NCBI GenBank assembly: GCA_007693765.1
Contig: RECZ01000128.1
Location: 1-33,773, forward strand
Direction of reading: 5' to 3'
DNA from: Phycisphaerales bacterium
Lineage (GTDB): Bacteria > Planctomycetota > Phycisphaerae > Phycisphaerales > UBA1924
DNA length: 33,773 nucleotides
Shown here: positions 3,330 through 30,509 of the stretch, piece by piece
Layout: each line of letters opens with the position of its first letter
How positions within the stretch are numbered: the stretch's first letter is position 1
Position numbers and translations under genes: made by a program
Notes under the pieces: model-generated
What the model was told of the DNA's origin: nothing
Seen by the model: only the letters and a program-made list of their open reading frames with translations
Database searches by the model: none

Positions 3330-3745
3330 CGCGCCCGGGGGGACTCGAACCTCCGACCTGCGGTTTCGGCACATCCGCCGATCACTCGGCGGGCCGGACC
3401 ATCTCTTCGACCCCGCGGCGCATCTCGGAGCGAGACGCGACGCGTGGCCGCCGGGCGCTTCGGCGCGCTCACGGGAGCGCGCCTACGCGGGGGTATCGCC
3501 GGGGCGGCTCACCCGCTGGCCTCTACACCTTCCGCCGACGACGCGAGGGTCGCTCGCGTGCCCCGTCGACGGCTCGGCTCGGGATCGCCCTCCGGCGCGC
3601 TGCGCCGGGTGGGGGTTCCCCGAGTTCACCCGGTTCGCCTCGACCCGTCACCGGGCCGGGCCCCTCTTGGTACTGCGTCGGCGGCGTGCTCGCCCCGACG
3701 CGCCGCGAAGGAAACCGCTGCTCTATCCAGCTGAGCTACGGGCGC
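3330..3745 (-). tRNA. tRNA-Arg (anticodon CCU) interrupted by a group I intron
   Basis: Exon 1 is 3709-3745 and exon 2 is 3330-3366. Joined, they give a 74-nt tRNA: acceptor GCGCCCG/CGGGCGC (7 perfect pairs), D stem GCTC/GAGC with loop AGCTGGATA, anticodon stem GCGGT/ACCGC with loop TTCCTAA (anticodon CCU at 34-36), and T loop TTCGAGT. The discriminator is G and CCA is not encoded. The intron falls between U36 and A37. The T stem GGAGG/CCCCC has one A51-C63 mismatch. This tRNA would read AGG codons, which are rare in GC-rich genomes. A -10-like TATACT lies at 3818-3823, 72 nt upstream. A scanner that does not allow such introns would miss the gene or see two fragments. Confidence 0.9.
3367..3708 (-). 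ncRNA. self-splicing group I intron (IC3-like) in tRNA-Arg(CCU)
   Basis: 342 nt, starting after exon U36 and ending in G, as group I introns do. P4 pairs CTCGGG (3619-3624) with CCCGAG (3578-3583). P7 pairs GGCCA (3517-3521) with TGGTC (3397-3401), flanked by the conserved-looking GAAGGTGTAGAG before and AAGAGATGGTCC around it. P9 is a 7-bp stem capped by a GTGA (GNRA) loop (3375-3392). P6 is GCCGTCGACG/CGTCGTCGGC with an inner CGCGAG/CTCGCG hairpin. Compared with my recollection of the Azoarcus tRNA-Ile intron, P7 GACUA/UAGUC becomes GGCCA/UGGUC, a compensatory change. P1 is not resolved; GGGG at 3693-3696 is a candidate guide. There is no homing endonuclease ORF. Agrobacterium tRNA-Arg(CCU) carries a group I intron at the same kind of site. 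Confidence 0.88.
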
Positions 3746-28326: not shown

Positions 28327-28334
28327 CCCCATGT

Positions 28335-28423
28335 TCGCTCGGGGCGCCCCCGCCGCACGTGCGCGAGGGGCTGAGACGCACCCGTAGAACCTGATCCGGT
28401 TCGCACCGGCGTAGGGAACGCGA
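28335..28423 (+). ncRNA. TPP riboswitch (THI element)
   Basis: The aptamer core is present in order: CTCGGGGCGCCC, GGGGCTGAGA, ACCC, GAACCTGATCCGGTTC and the closing ACCGGCGTAGGGAA. P1 pairs TCGC (28335-28338) with GCGA (28420-28423). P3 has an extra inner GCACGTGC helix. Thiamine diphosphate binding to such elements lowers expression of thiamine genes, here thiC. No terminator hairpin with U-tract lies between the aptamer and thiC, so control is more likely at translation. Confidence 0.93.
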
Positions 28424-28426
28424 CGC

Positions 28427-28528
28427 ATGAGGCTCCGCCAGACATCTCGGCGTGCAGACACGTGCGCGACGCGCTCCCGAGCGCCGTCCGACGTACGCCA
28501 CCGCACCGCCGAGGTCCCCCATGCCTGA
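28427..28528 (+). CDS. candidate upstream ORF in the thiC leader
   Basis: ATG 28427 opens 33 codons ending in TGA 28526-28528, which overlaps the thiC start at 28521 by 8 bp in another frame. AGGGA (28413-28417), 9 nt upstream, is part of the conserved 3' end of the TPP aptamer and could be its Shine-Dalgarno. The peptide ([13 protein letters not shown]...) is Arg-rich and matches nothing known to me. It may be a translated leader that couples to thiC, or chance. Confidence 0.35.
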
Positions 28529-30509
28529 CACATCCGCACCCGCCCGCCGCCTCCCCCTCCGCGGCGCCCACAACCCCTCCACGAACCGCGAGGGCACCTC
28601 GCCCGGCTCCTTCGCCAACGCCCCGGACGTGGGCGGCCCGCTCGCCTACTCCTCGCCCGACACGCCCGGCATGCCTGCGCCGTCGGGCAAGACGGCGTGG
28701 GACTTCCTGCCCGAGGGGTGGTCCGTGGTCGATCTCCGGGCCGCCCCCGCCGGTGCGCCCGCGTGGGTGGGGGACGTCGAGTCAGCCAACCCACACGTGC
28801 CGGCGCGCACCCGCGTCGACGCGAGCGGCTGCGGCGCCTGTCTCGGCGACGATCGCGCGTTCGTCGAGTTCACCACCGCCCGGGGTGGGCGCCTCCGCGT
28901 GCTCTATCCGCGCGGGTTCAGGCCCGTCACGCAACTGGAGCACGCGCGGCTGGGGATCGTCACGCCCCAGATGCAGCACGTCGCGACGCGCGAGCCGCAC
29001 CTCGCGGCGGAGCAGGTCCGCGACGAGATCGCCTCCGGTCGCATGATCCTGCCGGCGAACGTCCACCACCTTGCGCACAACCTCGAACCGATGGTCATCG
29101 GGCGGGCCTCGCGCACCAAGGTGAACGCCAACATGGGCGCCTCGCCCGTGTCATCGGGGACGGAGGAAGAGGTCGAGAAGCTGCGCTGGGCGGAGAAGTG
29201 GGGGGGCGACACGGTGATGGACCTGAGCACCGGGGGCGACCTCGACGCCTGCCGCGCCGCGATCATCGCCAACTCCACCGTGCCCATCGGCACCGTGCCC
29301 ATCTACTCGATGATCATCGGGCGCCGCCTCGAAGACCTCACGCCCGAGGTCATCTTCGAGTCGCTGCGGCATCAGGCGCGTCAGGGCGTGGACTACTTCA
29401 CGATCCACGCCGGCGTGCGCAAGGCGCACCTGAAGTTCATCCGCGACCGTCTCATCGGCATCGTCTCGCGCGGCGGGTCACTCCTCGCCAAGTGGTGCCT
29501 CGTGCACAACGCCGAGAACCCGATGTACGACCACTTCGACGCCATCTGCGACATCATGCGCGAGCACGACGTGTCCTTCTCGCTGGGCGACGGCCTCCGC
29601 CCCGGCGGCCTCGCCGACGCCACGGACGAGGCACAGCTCGCGGAGCTCGAGACGCTGGGCGAGCTCACCGAGCGCGCGTGGCGGCGCGGCTGCCAGGTGA
29701 TGGTCGAGGGCCCCGGCCACGTGCCCTTCGATCAGATCGAGTTCAACATGAAGGCCCAGCGCACGATCTGCCACGGTGCGCCCTTCTACGTGCTCGGCCC
29801 GCTGGTGACGGACATCTTCCCCGGGTACGACCACATCACCTCGTGCATCGGCGCCACCGCCGCGGCGTACCACGGGGCGTCCATGCTCTGCTACGTCACG
29901 CCCAAGGAGCACCTGGGCCTGCCCAAGAAGGACGACGTGAAGCAGGGCTGCGTGGCGTACAAGATCGCGGCCCACGCCGCGGACGTCGCGCTGGGCATCC
30001 CCCACACCCGCGACCGCGACGACGACCTGACCAAGGCCCGCGCCGCGCTGAATTGGGAGCGACACTTCGAGCTCTCCTTCGACCCCGACCTTGCGCGAGC
30101 CTTCCACGACGAGGACCTCGACGTCGACACGGACTTCTGCGCCATGTGCGGCCACGACTGGTGCTCCGTGCGCATCAGCAAGGAGATCCAAGAGTTCGCC
30201 TCCGGCAAGGCCGAGGGCTTCGAGCGTCTGGGCGGTAAAGACGGCGCGACCCCGGGGGCGCCGAAGATTTCCGCGGCCCTTTCGCCCGAGCAGCAGGAGA
30301 TCCTTCGCCAGCGGGGCGTGCTCAGCCCGGAGGAGATCCACCGCCTCGCCGCCAAGACCCGCAAGGCGGTGGGCGCGGACGCCGACAAGGCGTCCTGCCA
30401 CTCCGACTACGTCGATCCGGACAAGGCGAAGCAGGTGCAGCAGCAGAAACTCGTGCAGGTGGACGTCCGCCCGGCGATGAACGTGCCCAAGCATGACAGC
30501 GTGATCTGA
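28521..30509 (+). CDS. thiC: phosphomethylpyrimidine synthase
   Basis: 662 aa. ThiC is the radical-SAM enzyme that rearranges aminoimidazole ribotide to HMP phosphate in thiamine synthesis. Typical blocks are [72 protein letters not shown] and [13 protein letters not shown]. The non-standard radical-SAM cluster motif CAMCGHDWC (C540, C543, C548) is intact. About 75 residues follow the usual domain. The start ATG 28521 has GAGG 7 nt upstream; the in-frame GTG 28452 would only add a low-complexity arm. The TPP riboswitch lies 98 nt upstream. Confidence 0.96.

Follow-up and report, generated by a model that had tools for sequence, protein, structure and literature searches.

What interrupts the tRNA-Arg(CCU) gene on the minus strand of this contig, and would the gene still yield a tRNA? 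The window, which is the whole stretch of 33,773 nt that was analysed, belongs to a 2.9-Mb metagenome-assembled genome that is 96% complete. ARAGORN reported zero tRNAs on the raw, unspliced window, as a sequence-only reading of the DNA had thought possible for ordinary annotation. That reading also took the host to be a planctomycete, and a scan of named genomes indeed returned Phycisphaerales and Phycisphaeraceae for this intron type.

The gene is split into a 5' exon of 37 nt that ends at U36 (3709–3745, minus strand, as are all features of the locus given below) and a 3' exon of 36 nt (3366–3331), followed by the discriminator G3330. Between U36 and A37 lies an insert of 342 nt (3367–3708), which starts directly 3' of U36 and has a G as its last base. 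The joined exons and the discriminator make up a tRNA of 74 nt, and CCA is not encoded at the 3' end of the gene. The two halves, the cloverleaf and the U36/A37 junction had been proposed by eye and were exact to the base: ARAGORN called the spliced sequence tRNA-Arg(CCU), as it did for 21 spliced relatives. When long introns were permitted, a check that had been suggested beforehand, the program placed a 342-nt intron at the locus, with the boundary one base off and the anticodon printed as CCG. The T stem of the tRNA (GGAGG/CCCCC, 3336–3355) contains an A-C mismatch, which recurs in an intronless relative (L027). A scan for promoters and terminators found nothing.

Our explanation is that a group I intron interrupts the anticodon loop of the sole detected tRNA-Arg(CCU) gene, as computed from the fold, the sites and the homologs of the insert; by analogy with known introns it would be spliced out to leave the 74-nt tRNA, and it would have persisted by inheritance with losses or by occasional transfer. 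We assign this explanation a probability of roughly 95%.

Of 163 genomes searched in this family, 23 contain a homologous intron, at 69–79% identity and always in tRNA-Arg(CCU). All 22 complete homologs are inserted between U36 and A37. Other genomes of the family have uninterrupted CCU genes with the same junction (TTTCCT/AAACCG), and both states occur within a single genus, where G155 has an intronless CCU gene whereas G156 has the intron. The intron also occupies this site in one genome from a second family of the order (G238) and in one genome from outside the class (G785). Trees of the introns, based on a 92-site core and on 277 sites, had weak support at most nodes, and therefore we claim no route of transfer; one well-supported node (98) groups G156, G009 and G068. 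Three genera (L014, L018, L025) share one divergent tRNA-Arg(CCU) allele with a GCTCCGG acceptor and sister introns, which may represent a transferred tRNA gene.

The group I fold was drawn by hand onto the alignment of the 22 introns, with partners slid by 1–3 columns and 500 shuffles as controls. Of 1537 cells, 96.2% were paired in this fold, compared with at most 54% after sliding. Changes on both sides were found in 27 pairs, against 3–11 in the slid controls, and the covariation score was 0.226, against at most 0.050. None of the 500 shuffles matched the observed covariation values. A chance origin of the pattern is excluded, because homologs occur in 23 of the 163 genomes and the covariation exceeds that in all shuffles and all slid controls.

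Within the 22 introns, covariation was found in P1, P2, P6a, P7.1, P7.2, P8, P9.0 and P9. The helices P3, P4 and P5 were almost invariant within the family; these are supported by more distant relatives or by the conservation of their sequence. For instance, the two strands of P3 (3633–3629 with 3455–3451) did not vary in the family alignment (A1) but covaried across Patescibacteria and viral relatives, with CC/GG in 40, TC/GA in 15, CT/AG in 15 and TT/AA in 12 introns; these counts were left as parsed, including five non-pairing rows in which the regular expression had caught the wrong CCC. P4 (3624–3619 with 3583–3578) and P5 (3614–3612 with 3590–3588) were placed by the 22-intron fold. P6 and P6a together span 3528–3577, and six of the eight pairs of P6a (3572–3565 with 3539–3532) covaried. 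The guanosine-binding helix P7 (3521–3517 with 3401–3397, and 3523 with 3396 across a bulged A) was recovered in the 22-intron fold and in the wider set. P8 (3408–3450), P9.0 (3395–3394 with 3369–3368) and P9 (3392–3386 with 3381–3375, with a GUGA loop) are likewise helices of the 22-intron fold. P4, P6, P7 and a GNRA-capped P9 had all been recognised from the single sequence, together with a compensatory change in P7; these features are conserved in the 22 homologs, and the P7 change is real.

The splice sites agree with this picture. P1 pairs U33 to intron position C2 (3712–3707) with the internal guide GAGGGG (3666–3661). It was 100% paired, the U36-G wobble was invariant (22/22), and the next two pairs had changed on both sides. 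The intron had been described as starting after a U and ending in G, and both the U36-G pair and the terminal G are kept in 22 of the 22 introns. All six pairs of P2 (3642–3657), which has a GNRA loop, covaried, and across the 22 introns the loops of P2 and P9 are mostly GNRA. Hence, both a conserved P3–P9 core with the P3/P7 pseudoknot and the group I type of splice site, a U paired to G in P1 plus a terminal G, were found. The extra hairpins assigned beforehand to the P8 side do exist. That description was incomplete, however: there is also a hairpin in the P1 loop, and an insertion lies between P7 and P3. This insertion consists of P7.1 (3516–3512 with 3491–3487) and P7.2 (3508–3505 with 3501–3498), and its pairs change on both sides.

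Direct searches with the standard model gave a different impression. The Rfam model RF00028 (Intron_gpI), proposed as a first check, had no match in the window, in its genome or in ten introns of the family, even at E 0.01, and no Rfam family reached its cutoff at the locus. This silence would suit an insert of another kind, such as an intron spliced by proteins or an element that had integrated here. The full group I fold with its covariation speaks against such an insert. The open reading frames (ORFs) crossing the intron had no recognisable protein domain and no recognisable endonuclease gene, in agreement with the earlier description of an intron without an ORF. Moreover, the family is linked by transitive homology to introns that RF00028 itself detects by a wide margin. 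R1, a covariance model built from the P7–P9 part of the family introns and with E-values from a shortened calibration, matched the planctomycete introns L293 (6.5e-21) and L294 (1.9e-20); their RF00028 scores of 83.7 and 79.6 bits, respectively, exceed the cutoff of 50. In the viral sequence L104 the matches of R1 and RF00028 overlap. In Synechococcus phage S-CBWM1, R1 matched a group I intron that is annotated in psbA (1.3e-9), and it also matched several viral introns with an insertion resembling P7.1/P7.2. Homology to the curated group I families was thus found indirectly, by R1 and RF00028 on the same introns, while the direct RF00028 search of the family was negative. A weak R1 match in G063 (L223) was regarded as a chance hit, because the core motif is missing there.

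The negative result of RF00028 seems to reflect a blind spot of this model for a GC-rich family, because it scores relatives recovered by R1 (E about 1e-20) far above its cutoff. The absence of a covariance-model hit had been named in advance as grounds for rejecting the group I assignment. That situation has arisen only in letter, because R1 bridges the family to introns that RF00028 scores and to an annotated group I intron of a phage. A group I intron in tRNA-Arg(CCU), supported by its covarying fold and by homologs at the same site, therefore stands, and an insert of any other kind is extremely improbable.

Which group I introns are its closest counterparts? The IC3 introns of Azoarcus and cyanobacteria (in tRNA-Ile, tRNA-Leu and tRNA-fMet) resemble it in their anticodon-loop site, the short P5 without P5abc and the GNRA loops on P2 and P9, and their core sequence in P4/P6 and P7 is nearly identical. 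The IC3 subgroup is not known to have P7.1, and our comparison introns agree: in the IC3-type L297 (tRNA-Leu), L278 and L081 the 5' strand of P7 runs straight to the 3' strand of P3. In contrast, the planctomycete intron has P7.1/P7.2 between these strands, and it has UGAA before P4 where IC3-type introns have CAAA. The kinship with the tRNA introns of Azoarcus and Agrobacterium that had been suggested at first was therefore partly right, but the architecture of domain 7 is unlike that of the IC3 type.

P7.1 and P7.2 are known from domain 7 of IA introns (PMC1995217, PMC4227781), and the insertion is shared with IA-type introns of bacteria and phages such as Twort and the IStrons. Yet, P7.2 is nested inside P7.1 here, whereas it forms a separate hairpin in IA2. 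IA2 introns also have an extended domain 9 with P9.1 and P9.2 (PMC4227781), while in the 22 introns there is room only for P9 and P9.0 before the 3' splice site. The single short P9 and the tRNA host gene set the planctomycete intron apart from the IA type. Compared with these two subgroups, it fits neither IC3 nor IA2 by these features; it is an intron of a known kind whose domain 7 is a structural variant.

The P7.1/P7.2 insertion may also contact another part of the intron. A GGG just after the 5' strand of P6a (3563–3561 in the window) and a CCC in the P7.1/P7.2 loop (3504–3502) are nearly universal in the class. In 12 of 13 introns outside the family that lack this combination, the two loops can be matched by four or more contiguous Watson-Crick pairs, compared with a mean of 3.1 of 13 for permuted loops (p<5e-5; n=13, with the best register taken). 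Examples are UGGUU/AACCA in L310, GGUC/GACC in L323, GCAU/AUGC in L318, GAGU/ACUC in L239 and UAGG/CCUA in L276. Because the two loops covary in relatives, we predict a loop-loop helix between the P7.1 loop and the loop on the side of P6. No description of such a contact was found in literature titles and abstracts, a search that most RNA-structure journals fell outside. The contact is a specific prediction that could be tested by mutants.

Similar introns occur far from the planctomycetes. Many Patescibacteria have P7.1-type introns, mostly in tRNA-Phe(GAA) (L224–L292), with the same type of core and conserved GGG/CCC loops. Those in tRNA-Phe are apparently spliced after U33, whereas the planctomycete intron lies after U36 of tRNA-Arg(CCU). 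Insertions in tRNA genes of this group (CPR) have been reported (PMC9698310). Rhodopila has P7.1-type introns in tRNA-Asn (L226, L249, L262), with two copies in L262. In a stretch of one viral contig (L087, 1606–3053, minus strand), 1.5 kb hold three group I introns of the P7.1 type, which do not lie in a recognisable tRNA. Possibly, all these introns form one undescribed structural class, namely group I introns of the anticodon loop that combine an IC3-like core and a short P9 with a domain-7 insertion whose loop forms a covarying helix with the P6 loop, a class common to Planctomycetota, Patescibacteria, Rhodopila and viruses, with GC-rich members that escape the Rfam model. We regard this wider proposal as tentative, with the odds somewhat against it. 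A P7.1 class of this kind would connect the tRNA introns of distant phyla with those of viruses, so that the path by which they spread could be tested.

At least 120 stretches of viral contigs (L079–L158) also contain the core motif of bacterial tRNA introns; according to ARAGORN, most of these motifs lie in tRNA-Leu(UAA) or in another tRNA gene. The megaplasmid of Mycetohabitans rhizoxinica has a tRNA-Leu(UAA) gene that is not annotated and is interrupted by an IC3-type intron (L325, 430–860).

A separate question is where the planctomycete intron came from. The intron of Agrobacterium and Bartonella (BbgpI) resides in the same tRNA gene, splices after CCU and belongs to a tRNA that standard annotation likewise misses, and CCT repeats flank it in Bartonella (PMC7717549). 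The distribution is sporadic in both groups. A transfer of this alphaproteobacterial intron into the same site would be compatible with our main explanation. However, a scan of 84,980 species genomes for the P7–P7.1 motif returned no Rhizobiales; the non-planctomycete genomes with the motif were mostly Patescibacteria, plus Rhodopila (tRNA-Asn). The alphaproteobacterial intron, from a different phylum, is set apart by this motif scan and not by sequence alignment. We consider such an origin unlikely.

In two genomes of the same class, HNH-like ORFs overlap P7.1-type introns in tRNA-Asn (L293, 529–945, plus strand; L294, 1087–1497, minus strand). These ORFs have CxxC, HH and CANCHRE motifs, with a sub-threshold match to Pfam HNH (E 0.01). 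This suggests past mobility by homing. For the intron at our locus, the sporadic distribution and the lack of an endonuclease gene are what one would expect of a formerly mobile element, which may now be kept by inheritance with losses or by occasional transfer.

Would the gene still be functional? The interrupted gene is the sole CCU gene detected among the 40 tRNAs of the genome; a second intact tRNA-Arg(CCU), which would have spoken against the original proposal, was not among them (assembly 96% complete). The other arginine tRNAs detected were CCG and UCU. It had been suggested that AGG would be left apparently unread if the tRNA were missed. This was overstated: AGG is rare, with 5 codons in two ORFs, and the intact tRNA-Arg(UCU) can read it by wobble, so that the effect of the missed CCU tRNA on annotation is smaller. 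The same two facts would allow the locus to be a dead pseudogene with a decayed, unspliced intron, and the mismatch in the T stem points in that direction as well. Yet, that mismatch is shared with the intronless allele L027. Moreover, the catalytic core, the splice-site U-G and the terminal G are kept across the introns while the loops vary freely, and in every relative the exons, once spliced, give a tRNA that is called CCU. A dead gene is therefore very unlikely, albeit less so than an insert outside group I.

That a functional intron would splice itself out is inferred from the chemistry of group I introns and from an experimentally spliced counterpart, the tRNA-Arg(CCU) intron of Alphaproteobacteria; BbgpI of Bartonella splices in vivo and self-splices in vitro (PMC7717549). 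By this analogy, the transcribed intron would fold into the P3–P9 core, and pairing of U33–U36 with the internal guide in P1 would bring the U36-G wobble to the active site. The 5' splice site would be attacked by an exogenous guanosine that is bound in P7, after which the terminal G would take the place of this guanosine and the exons would be ligated into the 74-nt tRNA. The short loop-loop helix is predicted to fasten the P7.1/P7.2 domain to the P6 loop.

Bacterial tRNA group I introns have been reviewed from cyanobacteria and from alpha- and betaproteobacteria (PMC4033280), and a review of bacterial group I introns makes no mention of planctomycetes (PMC3984707). We found no case in a planctomycete tRNA in the literature searched, which most subscription journals lay outside. 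As far as could be checked, Planctomycetota is a new host phylum for tRNA group I introns. Roughly one genome in seven of a single planctomycete family carries such an intron, which neither the standard RNA model nor tRNA finders detect; this is of interest to specialists in ribozymes and in tRNA annotation.

Two further features of the host genome may be mentioned. Genes for tRNA-Asp, tRNA-Glu, tRNA-Ala(GGC) and tRNA-Arg(ACG) were absent from the 40 tRNAs found. These are probably assembly gaps, because the genome has no second R1 match. In the window itself, a TPP riboswitch (28330–28435, plus strand, 66 bits) lies just upstream of an ORF of 685 aa (28452–30509), which is probably a thiamine gene.
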